Origin: Lysinibacillus fusiformis
GTDB lineage: Bacteria > Bacillota > Bacilli > Bacillales_A > Planococcaceae
Assembly: GCF_007362955.1 (NCBI RefSeq)
Contig: NZ_CP041696.1
Coordinates: 2,914,001-2,978,000 of the forward strand
Length of the DNA stretch: 64,000 nucleotides
Direction: 5' to 3'
Both the position numbers and the translations under genes were made by a program. Below, piece after piece: positions 3,205 through 23,124 of the stretch; the first letter of the stretch is position 1, and every line of letters begins with the position of its first letter. The notes beneath the pieces were generated by a model that saw only the letters and a program-made list of their open reading frames with translations, was not told the origin of the DNA and made no database searches.

Positions 3205-3227
3205 ATTGCATTTATATTAAAAAAAGC

Positions 3228-3325
3228 AAGTGTCGTCACTTCCCTACGCTAGTGTGAACTAGATCAGGTTCGAAGGGTCCGTGTATACATACACATCTCA
3301 GTCTTAGAAAGACTCCCCTAGTGGT
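3228..3325 (-). promoter_or_regulatory. TPP riboswitch (THI element)
   Basis: Read on the minus strand, the conserved TPP aptamer words occur in order: CTAGGGGAGTC, ACTGAGATG, GACCCTTCGAACCTGATCT, then ACTAGCGTAGGGAAG. This matches the thi-box consensus (CUGAGA, ACCCUU-GAACCUGAUCU, AGCGUAGGGA). It precedes thiW and its leader terminator, so it most likely controls thiW by premature termination. Confidence 0.95.
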
Positions 3326-3449
3326 TTGGAAACGATTTAATTTTTAAAGTATAAATATTTCATCTAAATCTAGTCATTCATTCACATGCGAATGCGCTTT
3401 TCACCTAATAATGTACCATACTACTAAAAATAGTCAATAACTATGCCGA

Positions 3450-4646
3450 CTATTTCAAATCAGGTTGCATAAGATGTGGTGCTTTTTTCAATGTCCAGAT
3501 AAGGGCAAGGAAGAAGCATGCCAATAAAATAATTGCCCCAAAAATATAAGGGCTGTTCATATTCCAATCGAATAATACACCTGCTAGTGCAGGTCCAATC
3601 ATATTACCCAGACTCATATATGCATTATTAAGACCAGCGGCAAAGCCTTGTTCAGTTTCCGCAAGCTTAGAAATTAGCGTGTTGACAGCTGGTCGAATCA
3701 AAGTTGTCGCCGTTGAGAAAATTGTTGCTACAAGTAAAATAAGTGCAAAGCCAGATGCAAATAAAATTAAATAGATTGAAACGGATGCAATAAATAAATT
3801 GACTAATACAACCTTCATTTCACCGTAGCGATTAAAGAGAGGTGTAATAATGAACATTTGTACAACAACACCGAAAGCACCGCCTACCACTAATAGTATG
3901 GCAATATCTCCAGGAGTGTAATTAAATTTTTCCGTAACAAACAGTGATAATGTCGTTTGGAAATTAGCGATTCCGAACGAGAACACAAGCATAATAATAA
4001 GCATTACAAAGTAAGGCATTTTGACGGAACGTACCATTTGTTTCGCAAGATTATCTTGTTTTTGCGCCTTTTGAGATGTACTTGGTTTTGTTGAAGGTAA
4101 AAGAAAGAATGAGAGAATAGCTGCTATAATAGCTGCAGCACCAGCCGTATAGAATGGGAAGTGCAGACTAACCTTCGCTAAAAAGCCCCCTATACCCGGT
4201 CCAATCATAAAGCCAAGAGACATAGCCGCTCCTAACATACCCATCCCCTTGCCTCGTTCTTCGTATGTTGTAACATCAGCTACAAAAGCCATAATAGGAG
4301 GTGCGATGAAGGCAGAACCTAAACCTCCGAAAAAACGCGCGAGAAAGAGCATCCAAATATCCGTTGAAAGCCCAAACGAAATTTGTGCAAGACCAGTTAC
4401 GATAAGACCAAAAATAATTAGATTTTTTCGCCCATACTGATCAGAAAGATTCCCAGCAATTGGAGAAAATACAAACTGTGCCAAGGCGAACGTTGCAATA
4501 AGCATGCCAAGAACTTGTCCTGCAGCACCAAATATTTTTAAATACTCAGGCATAACAGGAATAATAATACCAATACTCCCCATTGCGATAAACATATTAA
4601 ACATTAAAATATACAAAGCCGCCTTATTCGACTTCTGCTGGGTCAT
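3450..4646 (-). CDS. MFS drug transporter of the NorA/Bmr type (DHA1)
   Basis: This 398-aa protein has 12 predicted helices. The loop after the second helix carries the MFS motif A (GNLSDQYGRKNLI), and the motif C-like stretch GAAMSLGFMIGPGIGG typical of drug/proton antiporters is also present. The overall pattern (SIGIIIPVMPEYL near the N-terminus) is that of Bmr, Blt and NorA multidrug pumps. Substrates cannot be read from sequence. A run of G residues precedes the ATG at 4646 as ribosome site. Its promoter region carries an inverted repeat (4685-4700), suggesting a dedicated regulator that is not adjacent. Confidence 0.85.
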   Translation of the reverse strand: MTQQKSNKAALYILMFNMFIAMGSIGIIIPVMPEYLKIFGAAGQVLGMLIATFALAQFVFSPIAGNLSDQYGRKNLIIFGLIVTGLAQISFGLSTDIWMLFLARFFGGLGSAFIAPPIMAFVADVTTYEERGKGMGMLGAAMSLGFMIGPGIGGFLAKVSLHFPFYTAGAAAIIAAILSFFLLPSTKPSTSQKAQKQDNLAKQMVRSVKMPYFVMLIIMLVFSFGIANFQTTLSLFVTEKFNYTPGDIAILLVVGGAFGVVVQMFIITPLFNRYGEMKVVLVNLFIASVSIYLILFASGFALILLVATIFSTATTLIRPAVNTLISKLAETEQGFAAGLNNAYMSLGNMIGPALAGVLFDWNMNSPYIFGAIILLACFFLALIWTLKKAPHLMQPDLK

Positions 4647-15898: not shown

Positions 15899-17143
15899 TT
15901 AGTCGCTTGTATTATTTGAAGTCGGTTTACCAGCTGCGAGTAATACCTTACTACCAAGTAAGAAAAATCCTAGTATAAATAATAGTGCGCCTGTACCTAT
16001 AAGTAACCATTCAATAGCAATCATATCAGCGATTGGTCCAAAAATCAGCATCCCTAAAGGCATCATAGATGTTGAAATCATACCAAGCACACCAAAAACT
16101 CTGCCTAAATAATCACCCTCAATCTTTTCTTGTAGCAAAACTGTGGCAGGTGTATTGAAGATAGGCATTGAGATTCCTGTAATCGCCATAAAGACAAGGT
16201 ACAATGAAAAAACTGGAATGATACCAAGAACAACCGTGCAGGCACCAAATAATAATGTTGCAAATGTCATTGTATGCACTTTGTTTTTAAAGCCACCCCA
16301 TGAAGCCATTAATATGCCACCGATCAGCATACCCAAGGCAAATGTAATTTCGATAGCTGTTAAACGCCAAACATCATTACCAAAGCTACGTGTCACCTGT
16401 AATGGAGTCAAGAATGCGGCTGGTGCTGCAAGTATCATGAAGAATGCAAAAAATATAAAGAATTTTTTTAAGAAATTATGTTCTTTAATATACGTAAATC
16501 CTTGTTTCATATCACTAAAATAACCTGTAGTTTGCTTTTGTGCTGCTTTGGCATGGACTGGAATATGCAAAAAGAACAGCAATGTACTAATTGCAATTGC
16601 AGCTGTAATGACATCGATAAAGAAAATCGATTCGAGCGAAGCTTGCGTCAATAATGCGCCACTAGCCATCGGAGAGATAATCATCACAAACGCTTGAATA
16701 CTACCATTTGTGCCGTTTACTTTCATTAGTTTATCTTCAGGTACAATTTGTGGAAGAATTGCACCGACTGCAGGTGTTTGAATGCCAGCACCTATTGCGC
16801 GAATGGCAGATATGGTAAATAGCAACCAAAGTGAATCATAGCCCAATAAAAATAATATAGCTAACAGAAGTGTGGACAGGGCAATCATACCATCAGCCAA
16901 AATGATTAACCATTTGCGATTATAACGATCCGCCCAAACACCAGCAATTGGTGACAGGAAGAAAGTAGGTAAGAAACCGCAAATGATAGAAATTGTCATC
17001 ATGACACCTGATTGTGTACTTAACGTGATGTACCACGTGATGGCATATTGTACGAGGGAAGAACCAAAAAGTGAGATGGTTTGGCTTCCTAAAAAAAGGG
17101 TAATGTTCCTTTTCCAATTTTCCATTGCATTTGTTTGTGTCAT
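15899..17143 (-). CDS. MFS efflux pump of the Mef (macrolide efflux) type
   Basis: The 414-aa protein with 12 helices shares the Mef(A)-like framework: the opening ENWKRNITLFLGSQ, the loop SPIAGVWADRYNRKWLIILADG, LPQIVPEDKLMKVNG, and near the C-terminus LLQEKIEGDYLGRVFGVLG. Mef proteins are proton-driven exporters of macrolides, but family members export many drugs, so the substrate is inferred. I prefer the ATG at 17143 to the TTG one codon earlier; AAAGGA is 10 bp upstream. Between a good promoter (17562-17590) and the gene lies a leader of about 410 nt with a 13-codon peptide and two intrinsic terminators, the architecture of antibiotic-induced attenuation. Confidence 0.85.
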   Translation of the reverse strand: MTQTNAMENWKRNITLFLGSQTISLFGSSLVQYAITWYITLSTQSGVMMTISIICGFLPTFFLSPIAGVWADRYNRKWLIILADGMIALSTLLLAILFLLGYDSLWLLFTISAIRAIGAGIQTPAVGAILPQIVPEDKLMKVNGTNGSIQAFVMIISPMASGALLTQASLESIFFIDVITAAIAISTLLFFLHIPVHAKAAQKQTTGYFSDMKQGFTYIKEHNFLKKFFIFFAFFMILAAPAAFLTPLQVTRSFGNDVWRLTAIEITFALGMLIGGILMASWGGFKNKVHTMTFATLLFGACTVVLGIIPVFSLYLVFMAITGISMPIFNTPATVLLQEKIEGDYLGRVFGVLGMISTSMMPLGMLIFGPIADMIAIEWLLIGTGALLFILGFFLLGSKVLLAAGKPTSNNTSD

Positions 17144-17168
17144 CAAAAATCATTCCTTTCAGTTCAAT

Positions 17169-17195
17169 AAAAAAACACAGGGTATCTGCCTGTGC
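17169..17195 (-). terminator. Second attenuator terminator in the Mef-like pump leader
   Basis: On the minus strand GCACAGG and CCCTGTG form a stem with loop CAGATA or similar, followed by seven Ts. It ends just upstream of the pump's ribosome site, so it would block the gene unless read through. Confidence 0.85.
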
Positions 17196-17368
17196 TAAGA
17201 GTAAGTGGGGGAGGGCGCATGAAATTACCTAAATATGCTTATAAATTCAAAATAATCGGTCATTCAAACAAAAAATTTCATCTGAAATAAATTTGATCGA
17301 ACTTTTGTTGTTCAATCAAAAAATAGCCAGTTTAATTTTTTAACATTCATTTTAGATTTAAAGACAAC

Positions 17369-17398
17369 AAAAAAGAGGGTGATATTAGCCCTCTTTTT
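17369..17398 (-). terminator. First attenuator terminator in the Mef-like pump leader
   Basis: On the minus strand AAAAAGAGGG and CCCTCTTTTTT pair around an 8-10 nt loop. It lies about 90 nt after the leader-peptide stop codon. The A-rich other side makes it look bidirectional, but no plus-strand gene precedes it. Confidence 0.85.
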
Positions 17399-17486
17399 AC
17401 ATAAACGTAAAACGAAAATTTTCCTAAAAATAGGTAGACCAATCCCATTTACTCTGCACAGTAGGCAAAGCTTTGAACGTATTCAA

Positions 17487-17528
17487 TTAACGGTTCAAAT
17501 TACGGAATCGAAATCTACTTGGCATCAT
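17487..17528 (-). CDS. Leader peptide MMPSRFRFRNLNR of the Mef-like pump
   Basis: A 13-codon frame runs from the ATG at 17528 to a TAA at 17487-17489. GGAGG (17537-17541) sits 8 bp upstream, and the sigma-A promoter places the start of transcription about 30 bp upstream, so this is the first translatable unit in the leader. The peptide has Arg-Phe-Arg-Phe-Arg at residues 5-9. The Arg/Lys-X-Arg/Lys motif is the known signature of leader peptides that stall macrolide-bound ribosomes, as in ErmD leader peptide. The end of the frame (TTTGAAC) pairs with GTTCAAA just downstream, and TTTTCCTAA at its start pairs with TTAGGAAAA before the first terminator, so a stalled ribosome would alter leader folding. 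Confidence 0.75.
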   Translation of the reverse strand: MMPSRFRFRNLNR

Positions 17529-17561
17529 TAGGAAAACCTCCATTTCTTTAAAATCATAATA

Positions 17562-17590
17562 ATAGTAGCATGGTCTATAATTGTTGGCAA
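17562..17590 (-). promoter_or_regulatory. Sigma-A promoter of the Mef-like pump leader
   Basis: On the minus strand TTGCCA (17585-17590) and TACTAT (17562-17567) are spaced by exactly 17 bp. Transcription should start near 17555, only about 14 nt before the leader-peptide ribosome site. Confidence 0.7.
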
Positions 17591-17781: not shown

Positions 17782-18996
17782 ATGTTAAAAAAATATGGGC
17801 TGTTACTTGGTGGTTTTGGTTTTTCTTATTTTGGAAATTGGATTTATTTAATTGCGTTGAACTTGCTCGTTTTAGATTTAACAGGGTCTGCTGCAGCTGT
17901 TGCGGGTATTTTTATAGTTGGGCCAGTGGCACGTATTTTTACAAATATCTTTGCTGGTTCTATTATTGATCGTGCAAATAAGCGGAAATTAATGATGACT
18001 GCAGATATACTACGTGGTTTATTAGTTTGTCTTGTACCTTTCATGCATTCCATTTGGATTATTTATCTTATCTTATTTATATCAAATATGGCAGGAGCTT
18101 TCTTTGGGCCTAGTTCTACATACTATATTACAAAATATGTAGATGACGAAGATAGAAGAAAATTTAATGCTTGGCTAGGAATGATGAATTCAGGCTCCTT
18201 TTTAGTGGGACCTGCTCTTGCGGGCGTGTTAATTTTGATGATTGGGACACATTGGACAATTATCATTAATGGTTTGACGTTTTTCATTTGTGTATTTGCA
18301 ATCTATTTATTACCGGATATTGATGCTAATGCAAGGAAGGTTAAGGCGGTACGTGAAAAAATTACTCTTCGTACGATTTCGGAAGATTTCCAAGTAGTTA
18401 AACGTTTTATTTTAACAGATCGTATTTTTTTTAAAATATATGTAGCTTTTCAAGTGGCATTAATGATTGCCTTTGCCCTTGATTCACAGGAAGTAACATT
18501 TTTAAAACAAAATCTAGCATTGTCAGATCAGACATATGGATTTATGGTTAGTGTGGCTGGAGTGGGTTCGCTGATTGGGGCTACTGTGGCAGCAAACTTG
18601 ACGAAACGATTGTCATTAAAATCTTATGTTACGCTTGGCTTATTGTTAACAATGGTAGGCTACACGGCTTTCTACGCATCATTTAACTTTTGGTCTGCGC
18701 TATTAGCATTTATTTGTTTAGGATTCTTTGCGGCATTTAGCAATGCAGGATACGAGACTTTTTATCAAAAAAATGTGCCTACCGATATAATGGGACGGTT
18801 CGGCAGTCTAGCTTCCATGTTCCAAAGCATTCTTCAAATTATGTTTACGTTTTTGTTAGGCGTAAGTGCAGAACTGTTCACATTACAATACAGTGCGATT
18901 GTTTTTGGTTGTATCAGTATAGCCTGTACACTTGTATTATTGTTTGTGGTATATGCTAATAAAAGCACGAATCATTTTAAAGAAACACCAATTTAA
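17782..18996 (+). CDS. MFS transporter, MefA/YfiS-like
   Basis: The 404-aa protein has about 12 helices. Its N-terminal region (FSYFGNWIYLIALNLLVLDLTGSAAAVAGIFIVGP) and the loop AGSIIDRANKRKLMMTADILRG place it in the same broad MFS_3-type exporter group as the neighbouring leftward pump, though the two are clearly diverged. The substrate is unknown. AAAGGAG is well placed before the ATG. It is divergent from the Mef-like pump, and its own leader is short (about 40 nt) with no hairpin, so it does not share the attenuation device. Confidence 0.82.
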   Translation: MLKKYGLLLGGFGFSYFGNWIYLIALNLLVLDLTGSAAAVAGIFIVGPVARIFTNIFAGSIIDRANKRKLMMTADILRGLLVCLVPFMHSIWIIYLILFISNMAGAFFGPSSTYYITKYVDDEDRRKFNAWLGMMNSGSFLVGPALAGVLILMIGTHWTIIINGLTFFICVFAIYLLPDIDANARKVKAVREKITLRTISEDFQVVKRFILTDRIFFKIYVAFQVALMIAFALDSQEVTFLKQNLALSDQTYGFMVSVAGVGSLIGATVAANLTKRLSLKSYVTLGLLLTMVGYTAFYASFNFWSALLAFICLGFFAAFSNAGYETFYQKNVPTDIMGRFGSLASMFQSILQIMFTFLLGVSAELFTLQYSAIVFGCISIACTLVLLFVVYANKSTNHFKETPI

Positions 18997-19098: not shown

Positions 19099-22000
19099 TT
19101 AATTTTCTTCCATATCTTTACGATTTTTCTTTAACATTTTTGATAGCATTTCATATACGATTGGTACAACTACCAATGTTAATAATGTTGAAGATAATAA
19201 TCCACCGATTACAGTGATGGCAAGGTCTTTTGAAATCAGACCACTACCGCCGCTTCCGAATGCCATTGGAAGCATAGCGCCAATTGTAGCAATGGCAGTC
19301 ATTAAGATTGGACGTAAACGAGTTGCGCCCGCTTCTAAAATCGCTTCACGCATTTGTAGGCCGTTACGTTCCATGTGGATGATGCGGTCTACGAGGACAA
19401 TAGCATTTGTGACAACAATACCAATTAACATTAAGAGACCCATCATAACTGAAACAGAAATTGTTTGACCTGTCACATATAGGCCAACAAATGCCCCAAT
19501 CACAGCAAATGGTAATGAGAATAGGATTGCGAATGGTGCTAAGCCTTCACCAAATGTTACAACAAGAATGAAGTAAACAATGGCGATTGCTGCTAGCATT
19601 GCTATACCAAGTTGCGTAAATGTTTCTGCCATATCAGCAGCAACACCAGCTACGCCAGTTGTTACACCTTTAGGTAAGTCTAATTCATCGATTTTTTTAT
19701 CTGCAGCAGATGAAGCTTTTGAAATGTCGTCGCCGATAATTGTACCGGAAACCGTTGCAAAGTATTCACCTTTTGAGCGAGATAATGAATTTAGTGTCGT
19801 ACCTTCTTCAACTTGCACTAATTCACCGATTGTCATTGTAGTGCCTAAAGCTGTTTTTATTTCAGTTGCTAAGACATCATCTAGTGATAATGCTGCTGCT
19901 TTTGCTTCACGTTGCACGATTACATTAATGTCCTCGCCATCGTGCTCAACCGTTGTTAAAACTTCTTGTGATGACGTAGTATTTAAAGCCATTACAATTT
20001 GTGCAGTTGTTAAACCATATTGTAAGACATTTTTTTGATCTACTTTTAAAATGTGCTCTACATATGGATCTTCGTTATCAGATTTAATATCTTCTAAACC
20101 GTCAACTTCTTTTAGTGCGCCTTCAACTTCGAGTACTGCTTTACGAAGATTATCTAGATTTTCACTATATAATGTGTAGCTCACTTCGTTTGAAGACATA
20201 GACATAGATGAGAAGTTTTGAGTTTTCCATTCACCTGATTGACCAATGTTAAATACATACTTTTCTACGTCTTCACGTGCGCCAGGGAAATCCTTCATAT
20301 CTGGGTCGAAGATCAGGTACATTAAAGCACCACCAGCACCGCCACCCATCATCATTGCGGCTGGATCTACGTTTGAAGCATCGGTAATTGATACCTGTAA
20401 AATATCAATGTCTTTACGTTTCATTAATTCTTTTTCAACTGCTGCAACATTTGCTTCTGTTTCATTCATTAGCTCACCAGTAGCAGGTGTATATGTTAAA
20501 TACATAACTTTTTCTTCCTGAGAACCCATGAAACTAAAGCCGATTAATGGCGTTAAAGCAAGAGATCCAACGAGCATTAAAATCGCAATAACAGAAGTAA
20601 TGAACTTATGATTTAATGCTTTTTCTAATACCCCTCTATACCAAGTAGCTAGTTTACCAACTTCTTTATGCTGGCTCTCTTTTTTCTCACCGTATAATTT
20701 CTTACGGAATAAGAAGTGAGATAGCGCTGGTACAATCGTAATCGCGACTAATAATGATGCGCCTAGAGCGAATGACATTGTTAATGCGAATGGCATGAAT
20801 AATTCACCAACCATACCACCTACAAAAATAAGTGGTGCAAATACTGCAACTGTTACTAATGTAGAAGAAAGGATTGGTTTGAACATTTCAATTGTCGCTT
20901 CACGAATAAGTGCGCGACCAGTCATTTTTTCTTCTTTTAAATGGATACGTCGATAAATATTTTCTACAACAACAATGGAGTCATCGATTACACGGCCAAT
21001 GGCAACTGTAATCGCCCCGAGTGTCATAATATTTAGCGTAATATCCATCCAGTTCAGTAAAAGTAGTGCCATAAATACAGAAACTGGGATTGAAATAATA
21101 GAAATGATTGTTGATTTAAAATCACGTAAGAATAGTAAAATGATTAATACGGCAATGGCACCACCGAACACCGCTTTTTCAATCATTGTAAACACTGAAT
21201 CTTCAATTGGAGCACCTTGGTCCAGTGAGATGTCAATTTTTAAACCATCAATTGTTTTTTCTTCATCTTTAATAAGATCTTTTACTGCATTGACAACTGT
21301 TACGGTATTGGCATCTTGACCTTTCACGATTTGAATTGCTATCGCATCTTTACCGTTTGTACGAGAAACAGATTGTACTTTACCTTCGACTTCAATCGTT
21401 GCAATATCACCTAAACGAACAAATGGGGAAGGTTGTGTTGCTGAAGGAGTCACTGGGATTAATAACTCTTTTAATTCTTCTATAGATTTAACTTTACCAT
21501 CTACGGAAACCGCTTGTTCACCGACAGTAAACTCATATAGACCAAGTGATAGCGCCATATCACTCGCTTGAATCATTTGTTTTACAGATTCCTCTGTAAG
21601 GCCAAGTGCAGCCATTTTTTCTTCATCGTATTTAAATGATACTTGCTCAATGTGCTGACCTGTAATGGTCGCTGAAGCAACACCATCAATTTTTTCGATT
21701 TTAGGAAGTAATATATCTTCTACTGTTGATGTTAGTTCAACAATATCTTCATCAGAGCTACTTGCTGATAATGCGATAACTGGCATCATGTTCATACTAA
21801 TTGCCATGATTGTAGGTTCTTGTGCACCTTCAGGAAGTTTCACATTATCTAAAGCAGATTCTAGCTGACGTTTTTTCTCATCCATATCGATGCCGTAGTC
21901 ATATTCAACTTGTACTTGTGCAACATTTGATGAGGAAGTTGAATAAACTGCCTTTACATCTTCTAAACTTTCAATAGATTTTTCAAATGGTATGGACAGT

Positions 22001-22188
22001 TCGTTCATGACTTGTTCAGGAGTTGCGCCAGGATAAACGCCCATAACAATTAAGTAAGGAATCGAAATATCAGGAATGGACTCCATTTTCATACGTGTAC
22101 CTGAATAAATACCTGAGACAGTGATGATAATTGTTAATAACCATACTGCGAGTTTGTTTTTTAATACGAAATTAACTAAACCTTTCAC
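19099..22188 (-). CDS. swrC: RND efflux permease, SwrC/AcrB family
   Basis: The 1029-aa protein has the RND layout: one N-terminal helix, a large extracytoplasmic loop (about residues 35-335), six helices with the GGMVGELFMPFAL and VIDDSIVVVENIYRRI stretches, a second large loop and six more helices (IGIVVTNAIVLVDRI). It is the single-component RND exporter type of Gram-positives, for which B. subtilis SwrC (YerP) gives surfactin self-resistance and is needed for swarming. The gene stands alone and is divergent from a tetR gene whose likely operator covers the swrC promoter. Its substrates here, probably amphipathic compounds, are inferred from the family. Confidence 0.92.
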   Translation of the reverse strand: MKGLVNFVLKNKLAVWLLTIIITVSGIYSGTRMKMESIPDISIPYLIVMGVYPGATPEQVMNELSIPFEKSIESLEDVKAVYSTSSSNVAQVQVEYDYGIDMDEKKRQLESALDNVKLPEGAQEPTIMAISMNMMPVIALSASSSDEDIVELTSTVEDILLPKIEKIDGVASATITGQHIEQVSFKYDEEKMAALGLTEESVKQMIQASDMALSLGLYEFTVGEQAVSVDGKVKSIEELKELLIPVTPSATQPSPFVRLGDIATIEVEGKVQSVSRTNGKDAIAIQIVKGQDANTVTVVNAVKDLIKDEEKTIDGLKIDISLDQGAPIEDSVFTMIEKAVFGGAIAVLIILLFLRDFKSTIISIISIPVSVFMALLLLNWMDITLNIMTLGAITVAIGRVIDDSIVVVENIYRRIHLKEEKMTGRALIREATIEMFKPILSSTLVTVAVFAPLIFVGGMVGELFMPFALTMSFALGASLLVAITIVPALSHFLFRKKLYGEKKESQHKEVGKLATWYRGVLEKALNHKFITSVIAILMLVGSLALTPLIGFSFMGSQEEKVMYLTYTPATGELMNETEANVAAVEKELMKRKDIDILQVSITDASNVDPAAMMMGGGAGGALMYLIFDPDMKDFPGAREDVEKYVFNIGQSGEWKTQNFSSMSMSSNEVSYTLYSENLDNLRKAVLEVEGALKEVDGLEDIKSDNEDPYVEHILKVDQKNVLQYGLTTAQIVMALNTTSSQEVLTTVEHDGEDINVIVQREAKAAALSLDDVLATEIKTALGTTMTIGELVQVEEGTTLNSLSRSKGEYFATVSGTIIGDDISKASSAADKKIDELDLPKGVTTGVAGVAADMAETFTQLGIAMLAAIAIVYFILVVTFGEGLAPFAILFSLPFAVIGAFVGLYVTGQTISVSVMMGLLMLIGIVVTNAIVLVDRIIHMERNGLQMREAILEAGATRLRPILMTAIATIGAMLPMAFGSGGSGLISKDLAITVIGGLLSSTLLTLVVVPIVYEMLSKMLKKNRKDMEEN

Positions 22189-22287: not shown

Positions 22288-23124
22288 ATGTTAAAAAAGC
22301 AACTTATTATGGAGAAGGCATTAGAATTGTTTTCTGAACAAGGCTTTGAAGCTACATCTGTTCAACAAATAACGGAACGTTGTGGGATTTCTAAAGGAGC
22401 TTTTTATTTATCCTTCAAAACTAAAGATGAACTTGTTTTCTCGATGGTGGACTACTTTTTACAGCAATTTATTACCGATATTGACCATGTAGTCAGAAGT
22501 TCGTTTACTAAAGAAATTTTACTAGTGGAATTCTATAAGAGTATTTTTCAAGCGTTCAAAAAGCATTCTGCATCTGCTCGCGTTTTTTTTAATGAAAAAA
22601 TTTTTGTCAAAAAGAAAGAATTGTTTCATAAAGTGAATACCTACGAATTAGACATGTCGAAGTCAATTGTCTATATGCTTGAACAGCTATATGGTGACTC
22701 ACTACAAAAAAATAAATATGATGTGATGTATTGTATAAAAGGGTTTATGAAAAGCTATGCTCAACTTTTTATTTTTTCTACTATTCCGCTAGACTTGGAT
22801 CAATTAGCTAAATCTCTAGCGGAAAAGACGGATATTATAGCACGCCATACAACGATCCCTTTTATTACAGAAGAACTCATTCAATTGGTAACTAAACCTC
22901 GCGAACAGGAATTAATTACCAAAGAATCATTGTACCAATTAATTGAACAGAGTATAGATATGTTAGAAGAGTCCATTGAACGTGAATCACTTGAGCTATT
23001 AATGCAACAAGTAGAGCACACAACATATAGTAGACCAATCATTAAAGGGTTGATTGAAAATATTCGTTTAAGGCAAGATTGTCAATGGGTTGCTTATGTA
23101 ATAAATAAATACTTCGAATTTTAA
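22288..23124 (+). CDS. TetR-family regulator, probable swrC repressor
   Basis: The 278-aa protein starts with a TetR_N helix-turn-helix (residues about 5-50: IMEKALELFSEQGFEATSVQQITERCGISKGAFYLSFKTKDEL) followed by a long ligand-binding region of about 220 residues, larger than the usual 190-200-aa TetR. The ATG follows GGAGAGAG. It is divergently transcribed from the RND pump, with a TetR-style dyad in the shared promoter region, so local repression of the pump and release by a pump substrate is the simplest model. Confidence 0.88.
   Translation: MLKKQLIMEKALELFSEQGFEATSVQQITERCGISKGAFYLSFKTKDELVFSMVDYFLQQFITDIDHVVRSSFTKEILLVEFYKSIFQAFKKHSASARVFFNEKIFVKKKELFHKVNTYELDMSKSIVYMLEQLYGDSLQKNKYDVMYCIKGFMKSYAQLFIFSTIPLDLDQLAKSLAEKTDIIARHTTIPFITEELIQLVTKPREQELITKESLYQLIEQSIDMLEESIERESLELLMQQVEHTTYSRPIIKGLIENIRLRQDCQWVAYVINKYFEF

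Follow-up and report, generated by a model that had tools for sequence, protein, structure and literature searches.

Organization of the pump locus

The locus raises the question of whether a short R-F-R-F-R reading frame and two terminators ahead of an efflux pump gene form a drug-sensing attenuator, and whether one stalled ribosome could open both terminators. The window, meaning the full 64,000-nt stretch of DNA that was analysed and within which all positions are counted, carries on its minus strand (17590–17144) a promoter, a Shine-Dalgarno (SD) sequence, the short frame, a long-range helix, terminators T1 and T2 and the pump gene, in that order (Table 1). Re-reading of the sequence located every feature claimed in an earlier note on this DNA, each at the position given there, on the minus strand. 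Judged by its sequence, the pump is a Mef-like MFS protein; it scores 213 bits against the Mef(B) profile (curated cut-off 800) and 212 bits against the Mef(A) profile (curated cut-off 675), reaching neither curated NCBIfam cut-off for the Mef(A)/Mef(B) macrolide efflux transporters.

Table 1. Features of the leader region and the pump gene within the window.
Feature	Position	Strand	Basis
Extended -10 promoter, TTGCCA-17-(TG)n-TACTAT	17562..17590	-	Promoter scan, TG before -10
SD of leader, GGAGG, within helix P1 5' strand	17537..17541	-	Sequence, fold
Leader frame M(M)PSRFRFRNLNR, conserved start at second ATG (17525)	17487..17528	-	Comparison with kin
P1 5' strand (SD and start region), proposed anti-antiterminator	17528..17546	-	Fold, covariation
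P2 5' strand (codons of R-x-R stretch)	17502..17518	-	Fold, invariant AGA/UCU pairs
Hairpin H1, last leader codons TTTGAAC with GTTCAAA	17472..17499	-	Fold, pair counts
Hairpin H2	17451..17471	-	Fold, pair counts
Core segment complementary to T2 5' side, proposed 5' strand of second antiterminator	17437..17468	-	RNAduplex
P2 3' strand ATGGGATTGGTCTAC, held by leader codons in predicted OFF state	17434..17448	-	Fold, alignment
P1 3' strand	17409..17427	-	Fold, covariation
Proposed T1 antiterminator, would sequester T1 5' arm	17390..17417	-	Pairing probabilities, weak
Terminator T1 hairpin, U-run forms end of 3' arm (CTCTTTTTT)	17370..17398	-	Hairpin scan, -11.0 kcal/mol
Core-complementary stretch including T2 5' arm	17187..17217	-	Duplex computations, co-variation
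Terminator T2 hairpin GCACAGG..CCTGTGT, T-run to 17169	17175..17195	-	Two hairpin scans
MFS efflux pump, Mef-like, 414 aa	15899..17143	-	Profile scores

The leader and its occurrence ahead of pump orthologues

The leader frame in the window reads MMPSRFRFRNLNR. Only its second ATG is kept in the two closest kin (L008 and L009), where the leader reads MPGRFRFHNLNR, and the 12-codon form is therefore the likelier one by comparison. The R-F-R-F-R motif highlighted in the earlier note persists in part, as the first R-x-R recurs in relatives; the second R-F-R is not conserved, and the closest kin have RFRFH. A second leader frame lying over T2 (MRPPPLTLSTGRYPVFFY, 17220–17164) was rejected, its ATG being kept in neither L008 nor L009.

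The 150 orthologue loci yielded 126 distinct upstream regions, which were scanned for a leader defined by an SD of at least 5, a length of 7–18 residues and [RK][LFI]R at residues 3–10. Such a leader is present in 64 of the 126 regions and absent by this definition from 62, while chance accounts for few (0 of 126 reverse complements; 1, 1, 2, 0 and 0 of 126 in five shuffles). In 53 of the 64 leader-bearing regions a TG precedes the -10 of the best promoter-like site, in a search that gave TG a bonus. A covariance model, R1, was trained on pump leaders only, so that its 25 seed rows match by construction. It was searched against 105 of the 126 regions, the other 21 being left out of R1 counts, and matches 64 of the 105; the window leader, itself in the seed, scores 121.9 bits. 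The earlier note had proposed a search upstream of orthologues, and the outcome is mixed: leader and RNA are missing in L025 and in the close kin L010 (88% identical) and L024 (81%), which have the same pump, a result that counts against the proposal by that note's own standard, yet of the 18 genomes of the genus that carry the pump, 16 have the RNA. At one further locus (L047) the RNA and T2 are present but an R-x-R frame is not.

Fold and covariation of the leader RNA

The minimum-energy fold of 17555–17362 has a free energy of -59.4 kcal/mol (z -5.8), with none of 200 shuffles as good. Both pairings described in the earlier note appear in it, TTTTCCTAA/TTAGGAAAA within a 19-pair helix and TTTGAAC/GTTCAAA as hairpin H1. 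The consensus that RNAalifold derived from 38 elements aligned with MAFFT was poor (17 pairs, four changed on both sides), in our view because the helix registers were misaligned, and a structure set by hand on 25 closer rows was used instead. In two alignments fitted to the covariance model, A3 and A4, 19 and 21 of 30 pairs respectively are changed on both sides, including 8 of 8 in helix P1 in each, and all 61 rows of A3 share the same AGA/UCU pairs in P2. At the level of aligned sequences, the helices of the predicted OFF state are thus conserved and co-varying.

Relation to ermD and other resistance-type genes

The Bacillus licheniformis ermD leader (plasmid record NZ_CP021671), which lies outside the seed, is matched by R1 with 89.1 bits (E 3.3e-17). 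By eye, terminators resembling T1 and T2 of the window can be made out in its leader region, and its core pairs with T2 at -33.2 kcal/mol, a value equalled by none of 402 other windows. Likeness to ermD/ermK thus extends to a homologous RNA, an R-x-R leader, T1 and T2, and the core-T2 pairing; the differences are that ermD controls a 23S rRNA methyltransferase gene and not a pump, and that its peptide has RLR where the window peptide has RFRFR. The attenuator of ermD/ermK in B. licheniformis was reportedly described by Kwak in 1991 and by Choi in 1997. Since R1 matches the ermD leader, whose region also has both terminators, the window element is very probably a ribosome-mediated transcription attenuator of the ErmD/ErmK type and a new member of that stalling group. 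The proposal of an ErmD-type leader controlling premature termination before a Mef-like pump gains from the recurrence of R-x-R and T1 and from this RNA homology. The earlier view that the double-terminator arrangement is undescribed does not stand, as two adjacent terminators are reported for ermK (PMC4335068) and the ermD copy has both T1 and T2. The ermD methyltransferase gene itself looks shortened in NZ_CP021671.

Further searches with R1 matched 100 distinct places, 95 of which were read downstream; of the other five, four are pump loci already in the set (L012, L014, L023 and L134) and one (G336), at a contig end, was left unread. Genes of resistance-type families follow the RNA in 93 of the 95 copies; across bacteria they are of at least seven kinds, ABC-F, HflX (21 HflX-type genes), Mph, Erm, RlmA-like, LmrB-like and Mef-like. 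A list of 97 loci holds two repeats (L201 = L190 and L113 = L165), and the element tree was built on 100 chosen rows. No published report of this RNA ahead of these seven gene kinds was found in the literature searched. At gathering scores, Rfam 15 identified only a TPP riboswitch elsewhere in the window, and a search of nine element loci up to E 1 gave two matches only (E 0.70 and 0.74).

These data bear on what the leader senses. In place of a 50S drug, the signal could be a general slowing of translation or too little of a charged tRNA, in the manner of amino-acid attenuators; AGA is the first Arg codon in 52 of the 56 distinct pump leaders, which would suit dependence on a single tRNA. This is nevertheless very unlikely, given that the second Arg codon varies between AGA, CGA, CGT and CGC among these motif-selected leaders, that resistance-type families dominate downstream, and that pairing with the invariant UCU of P2 accounts for the constancy of AGA as well. 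Least credible of all is an incidental frame, its R-x-R codons kept only for pairing with the core while another factor or ligand regulates the RNA. Pairing of leader codons with the core, the invariant AGA in A3 and the frameless RNA of L047 would fit such a case; against it, the second Arg codon changes synonymously while the residue is kept (in leaders selected by motif), the SD and start are kept, and the homologous ermD RNA encodes a peptide identical to the ErmK/ErmD leader.

Terminator T1 and a proposed local antiterminator

The T1 hairpin was called by the second of two scans and missed by a simple scan because its loop of 9 exceeds the limit of 8 set there. A T1 of the same kind is found in 47 of the 64 leader-bearing pump-orthologue regions. 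When the stretch from SD to R-x-R was hidden in the computation, pairing of the T1 5' arm rose from 0.10 to 0.58, with a rise above 0.2 in 45 of the 47 loci, and in the window from 0.24 to 0.64. In 46 of the 47 loci, at least 18 of 20 shuffled leader halves leave this arm less free than the real one does. For the antiterminator, the real spacer gave 0.58 vs 0.46 for shuffled spacers; it did better than at least 18 of 20 shuffles in 11 of the 47 loci, and in the window 6 of 20 shuffles were as good. Equilibrium folding with the leader half removed produced no switch, the T1 probability falling below 0.5 in only one of the 47 loci; since the T1 hairpin still wins at equilibrium, the switch would have to be kinetic. 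A local antiterminator of T1 is thus only tentatively proposed from these folding models. An AT-rich hairpin is also present between T1 and T2 (17320–17292).

Terminator T2 and its complementarity to the core

The T2 hairpin was called by both scans. RNAduplex pairs the window core with the T2 5' side at -28.2 kcal/mol (1 of 500 shuffles as good), and no other window of the same locus pairs with the core as well (0 of 151). A T2-like hairpin occurs in 81 of 107 loci, a set that counts both repeats and leaves out L157, L158 and L160. Taken together, the cores fit their own T2 better than swapped cores do (0 of 5000 permutations as low) in a test that still contains relatedness between loci; swapping among the 13 pump loci alone discriminates nothing, the cores being too alike. 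By sequence comparison, the core of the leader RNA is complementary to the T2 5' side with co-variation, of which no published report was found in the literature searched.

It may be that only T1 is under drug control and that T2 is a constitutive brake or insulator, the core-T2 match being a relic of descent or an alternative aid to T2 folding. T2 is found by pattern in only 13 of the 126 pump-orthologue regions; most leader-bearing pump loci show T1 and no T2 of that pattern, which would make T2 dispensable there. In addition, core-T2 pairing is unremarkable in some T2 loci (26 of 151 windows as good in L063, 15 of 151 in L048). This explanation is unlikely, as the co-variation of core and T2 spans families as unlike each other as HflX, Erm and Mph, and in 64 of the 81 loci the T2 segment ranks within the best 1% of windows in its pairing with the core.

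Proposed mechanism and significance

For control of both terminators by one ribosome, we infer a stall, a drug, read-through and an order of events as follows. Without drug, the ribosome would complete the leader and depart, the SD and R-x-R codons would pair with the downstream core (P1 and P2), and the free T1 5' arm would let T1 terminate most transcripts; those leaking through would meet T2, able to form since P2 and H2 keep the core occupied. An exit-tunnel drug, most likely of the macrolide class, would stall a ribosome at R-F-R, where it would cover the stretch from SD to R-x-R and free the 3' strands of P1 and P2, one of which could hold the T1 5' arm. By analogy with the RYR leader of tlrB, the predicted stall would have Phe5 in the P site and Arg6 in the A site of the 12-codon form. 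The freed core would pair with the T2 5' side, and the polymerase would reach the pump gene. A single stalled ribosome would open both gates, T1 by the antiterminator and T2 by the core.

On balance, we favour a widespread RNA module (R-x-R leader, core, T1 and often T2) without an Rfam family, in which one stalled ribosome would open T1 (local antiterminator) and T2 (core) in series. It would have been repeatedly exchanged between unrelated resistance genes (ABC-F, HflX, Mph, Erm, RlmA-like, LmrB-like and two Mef-like clades) as a plug-in drug sensor of Firmicutes, comparable to a riboswitch class. If so, the separately studied erm, mef-like, abc-f, hflX, mph and rlmA attenuators would be one searchable RNA class, and a covariance model could find resistance-type genes without knowledge of the protein, giving access to unknown members of the resistome and to prediction of inducers. 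It would also offer a testable reason for the two terminators of ermK and its kin, the second rechecking the same sensor; if both are gated, the second should cut leakage of costly genes. Copies of the RNA differ in the motif (R-L-R, R-F-R, R-V-R and K-L-R), and this natural variation would allow individual drugs to be matched to the motifs at which they stall the ribosome.

Comparison with other described attenuators

In streptococci, mef(E)/mel and mef(A)/msr(D) likewise combine an MFS pump, in their case one for macrolides, with transcription attenuation by a leader that has R-L-R (PMC4335068, PMC10314930), with an RLR leader and attenuation described for mef(E) (PMC4335068). The streptococcal mef leader, MTASMRLR, has a peptide start common to many leaders found here. 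Its last stem-loop, R7/R8, was found not to be a terminator (PMC4335068). The mef(A) leader of streptococcal phage, in two copies (L254 and L255), scores 8.6 bits with R1 (E 1.5) and is not a homologous RNA. By its published description, hflXr/rli80 of Listeria monocytogenes is similar in having a 14-residue RLR leader with a terminator, antiterminator and anti-antiterminator (PMC6310831). The tlrB (yxjB) gene of Bacillus subtilis, compared in the same way, shares an R-x-R leader (RYR) and a terminator, which precede an RlmA-type methylase. It differs in that its leader is stalled by tylosin and not erythromycin, in that no overlapping antiterminator was identified, and in that translation is controlled as well (PMC6851288).

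Leader region of the MFS pump

The region upstream of the MFS pump gene carries, on the minus strand, an extended -10 promoter, the SD of the leader, a short R-F-R-F-R leader frame and two terminators, T1 and T2, in the order given in the earlier note. The fold energy of positions 17555-17362 is -59.4 kcal/mol (z -5.8), a value equalled by none of 200 shuffles. The SD and leader start are predicted to pair with TTAGGAAAA and neighbouring bases (helix P1) and the R-F-R codons with ATGGGATTGGTCTAC (helix P2); two hairpins, H1 and H2, sit between the paired strands of these helices. The earlier observation is right and, judged from sequence, a ribosome-stalling attenuator is the likely mechanism; the locus joins an already known kind of attenuator. 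The nearest named resistance models to the pump are Mef(B) (213 bits) and Mef(A) (212 bits), both far under their curated cut-offs, so it is a Mef-like MFS protein and not Mef itself.

Features of the attenuated pump locus in the window
Feature	Position	Strand	Basis
Extended -10 promoter	17590-17562	minus	sequence
SD of leader	17541-17537	minus	sequence
Leader frame M(M)PSRFRFRNLNR	17528-17487	minus	sequence
Terminator T1	17398-17370	minus	sequence / hairpin search
Terminator T2	17195-17175	minus	sequence / hairpin search
MFS pump gene	15899-17143	minus	downstream of T2

An AT-rich terminator-like hairpin (17320-17292, minus strand) lies between T1 and T2 and belongs to neither proposed switch. 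A second MFS transporter (17782-18996, plus strand) is divergent from the attenuated pump and resembles Mef less closely (43 bits with Mef(B)). Elsewhere in the window are a large putative RND-type transporter (19099-22188, minus strand) adjoining a divergent TetR-like regulator (22288-23124, plus strand), both named from their frames, and a TPP riboswitch (3224-3329, minus strand, 81 bits).

Conservation upstream of pump orthologues

In the family, 70 of 261 genomes carry an orthologue of the pump (E up to 1e-100). Another 80 named loci came from the genome collection (the best 80 of at least 530), and the 150 together reduce to 126 distinct upstream regions. The leader criterion called for an SD and a frame of 7-18 residues, with [RK][LFI]R between residues 3 and 10, in a stretch of 620 bases. 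Such a leader is found in 64 of the 126 regions, compared with none of the 126 reverse complements and 0-2 of 126 in five shuffles. T1 follows in 47 of the 64, and between leader and T1 is a strongly conserved core, approximately GCAGAGTAAATGGGATTGGTCTGTCTATTTTTAGGAAA. The two closest kin (L037 and L038, filed under the names Lysinibacillus parviboronicapiens and L. sphaericus OT4b.31) have the leader MPGRFRFHNLNR, other Lysinibacillus copies have MTASIRLRFH..N, and Neobacillus and Psychrobacillus copies have LTASMRLR.... Set beside the peptides printed in PMC4335068, these leaders begin like that of streptococcal MefE (MTASMRLR) and are similar to that of ErmK, MTHSMRLRFPTLNQ.

R1, a covariance model of 140 positions and 30 pairs, was trained on 25 pump leaders and has a hand-set structure. 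R1 identified the window copy alone in its own genome (121.9 bits, E up to 1) and matched 64 of the 105 pump regions searched (of the 126), 60 in one search and four in another, the seed rows matching by construction. The model and the leader criterion agree at 60 pump regions; four have a leader and no RNA match (L032, L075, L111, L138), and four have the RNA and do not pass the leader criterion (L047, L059, L065, L068), the last three of which nevertheless contain an R-L-R frame. In L047 the RNA (2473-2611, 139.8 bits) and T2 are kept and an R-x-R frame is missing, which sets this locus apart from the closely related L048; its leader has perhaps decayed. Very short leaders (MTAAIRLR, MTNSIRLR and MSAFWRLR) lie close to the pump start in L088, L138 and L075 without the R1 RNA, perhaps representing a different attenuator with the stall motif in common.

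Of the 18 genomes of the genus that carry the pump, 16 also carry the RNA. Even with filters off, R1 did not find the RNA beside the same pump in L010 (pump 88% identical) and L024 (81%), nor in L025 of another genus (78%).

In the alignment of 61 matches (A3), 90.8% of cells are paired and 19 of 30 pairs have both sides changed; in a second alignment of 46 matches (A4), 40 of them not upstream of this pump, the values are 88.9% and 21 of 30. P1 has both-sided changes at all eight pairs in each. None of 500 shuffles and none of the slid controls reaches these pair counts, though both alignments had been fitted to the model. P2 is weak in part, with columns 54-56 paired in 69% of A3 cells. The RNA, searched in the window and nine element loci, matched no Rfam family.

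Relationship to known attenuators

On a plasmid of Bacillus licheniformis, a gene copy with the annotation ermD has the leader MTHSMRLRFPTLNQ and matches R1 (89.1 bits, E 3.3e-17). As in the window, T1 and T2 of the same kind are readable in its sequence, and its core is predicted to pair with T2 at -33.2 kcal/mol, which none of 402 windows equals. Two phage copies of streptococcal mef(A) gave no R1 match (8.6 bits, E 1.5); the leader read in one copy is MTASMRLR, and the RNA is not of the R1 type. These results place the window copy with ermD by RNA descent, while it resembles mef by gene type.

The double-terminator arrangement, which to the earlier note looked undescribed for a chromosomal MFS pump, has a precedent, since PMC4335068 credits ermK with two adjacent terminators; it also states that mef(E) is controlled by attenuation. 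MefAL and ErmDL are classed as +x+ leaders (PMC10314930), hflXr/rli80 has an RLR leader, antiterminator and anti-antiterminator, with RLR termed a signature of macrolide-resistance leaders (PMC6310831), and the tlrB leader contains RYR and is stalled by tylosin and not by erythromycin, with 180 leaders upstream of tlrB homologues (PMC6851288). Attenuators of this sort are reviewed in PMC5418344. An ErmK of Bacillus halodurans adjoins mphB in PMC9927578, a text in which the word "leader" does not occur, and "macrolide" and "efflux" are absent from the main text of a 2010 premature-terminator survey (PMC2965389).

Predicted switches at T1 and T2

For T1, 47 loci were folded with the RNA ending at the T1 5' arm, a stalled ribosome being represented by hiding the SD-to-RxR segment plus 15 bases. 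Hiding raised T1 5' arm pairing from 0.10 to 0.58 (0.24 to 0.64 in the window), with a rise above 0.2 in 45 of 47 loci. Shuffling of the leader half alone gave an arm pairing of 0.53. In 46 of 47 loci the arm is freer with the real leader half than with at least 18 of 20 shuffled ones, which argues that the modelled OFF helix is specific. With the spacer shuffled, pairing was 0.46 and at least 18 of 20 shuffles were beaten in only 11 of 47 loci; the window is not among these 11 (6 of 20 shuffles as good). The predicted T1 antiterminator is less certain than the OFF helix. In equilibrium folding with the leader hidden, T1 still wins in 46 of 47 loci, which argues that any T1 switch would have to act while the RNA is being made.

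T2 was identified by pattern in 13 of the 126 pump regions, with look-alikes outside the pattern in L080, L082 and L092. Upstream of T2 is approximately CCATTTACTC-TWARCACAGG, complementary to the core. The window core-T2 duplex (-28.2 kcal/mol) is equalled by 1 of 500 shuffles, and none of the locus's other 151 windows reaches it; over the 13 pump loci, between 0 and 39 of 500 shuffles do as well. Across all gene families, 81 of 107 loci (two repeats among the 107) have a T2-like hairpin. For core pairing, the T2 window ranks within the top 1% of windows in 64 of these 81 and first in 42; the pairing is not outstanding in some, such as L219 (32 of 316) and L063 (26 of 151). Own cores pair with T2 at -27.5 kcal/mol versus -22.5 for swapped cores, and beat the swapped mean in 69 of 81 loci (double-centred residual -4.98, a value reached in none of 5000 permutations, with relatedness still in the data). 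Swapping among the 13 pump loci alone makes little difference. Matched core/T2 changes include GTAAACGGG/CCCGTTTAC, GTAATCGGG/CCCGTTAC and GTAAATGG/CCATTTAC. In the predicted fold with no stalled ribosome, the core lies within P2 and H2; this position and its complementarity to T2 suggest that the core would be the T2 antiterminator, freed by the same stalled ribosome that would open T1.

Distribution among resistance-type genes

R1 gave 93 matches in 85 of 398 sampled Bacilli genomes (E up to 0.001 per genome) and matched 13 of 398 sampled genomes of the phylum, six of them common to the Bacilli sample; with rough E-values, about one false match is expected over both samples. The two samples yield 100 distinct places in all; at 95 of them the next downstream gene of at least 100 residues was read and grouped by blastp: ABC-F (22), HflX (21), Mph (18), Erm (17), Mef-like (7), RlmA-like (6), LmrB-like (2) and two in no group. 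The Mef-like genes comprise the window, two more of this pump and four of a second Mef-like clade. The gene read in L177 is 1.2 kb away, and frames look shortened in L168, L186 and L211. No account of one RNA family common to these gene classes was found in the accessible literature, which leaves most subscription papers and supplementary tables (such as that of RLR leaders in the hflXr paper) outside its scope.

HMM scans covered 20 proteins, 18 from the groups and two outside them. The ABC-F proteins scored as Msr-type (631-652 bits), which is below the cut-off for Msr (680) and above that for ABC-F protection proteins in general (380). HflX proteins scored 450-457 bits (cut-off 217), and Erm proteins 249, 235 and 234.5 bits (cut-off 212), with 177.9 for a shortened frame. 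The best Mph models gave 415, 517 and 313 bits against cut-offs of 610, 612 and 550, the L173 protein gave 304 bits for Mef(B) (cut-off 800), the LmrB-like proteins gave 512 and 392 bits for LmrB (cut-off 800), and the RlmA-like proteins are RlmA/Erm(32)-like and below cut-offs. By these scores the family is clear, and identity with a proven resistance gene mostly is not. The two ungrouped proteins had no NCBIfam match. A weak R1 match in L197 (41.6 bits) lies upstream of a protein without an NCBIfam match, being either a chance match or a novel gene kind.

Motifs in the 74 distinct leader frames beyond the pump are RLR (54), RFR (7), RVR (3), RIR (3), KFR (3), KLR (2), KSR (1) and RSR (1). 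The third residue is always Arg, written with four codons, though the pattern by which the frames were picked allowed Lys. A script did not find a leader in 10 of 97 loci. In L113 (titled Thermoactinomyces mirandus), the element (4318-4455) lies 3' of a Mef-like pump and 5' of an Erm gene, and no second R1 copy was found upstream of the pump in that locus.

The element tree was drawn from 100 elements and 140 columns, and 51 of its 97 inner branches are shown open. On it the gene-family label requires 29 changes; a single origin of each family would require seven, and shuffled labels require 63.5. Counting starred branches alone, the minimum is five changes for ABC-F, four for Erm and three for RlmA-like. 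Among the starred sets is one of 20 elements made up of ABC-F (6), Erm (5), RlmA-like (4), Mef-like (4) and one ungrouped gene. These label changes argue that the module has been exchanged between genes. On a wider, computational reading, a common two-gate drug sensor would be reused by many resistance genes, which, if true, is the interesting part of the finding. The window element falls in no starred set and is not nearest to the two other Lysinibacillus copies in the tree; its nearest neighbour is L074 (recorded as Desulfotruncus arcticus, same pump), at 81% identity.
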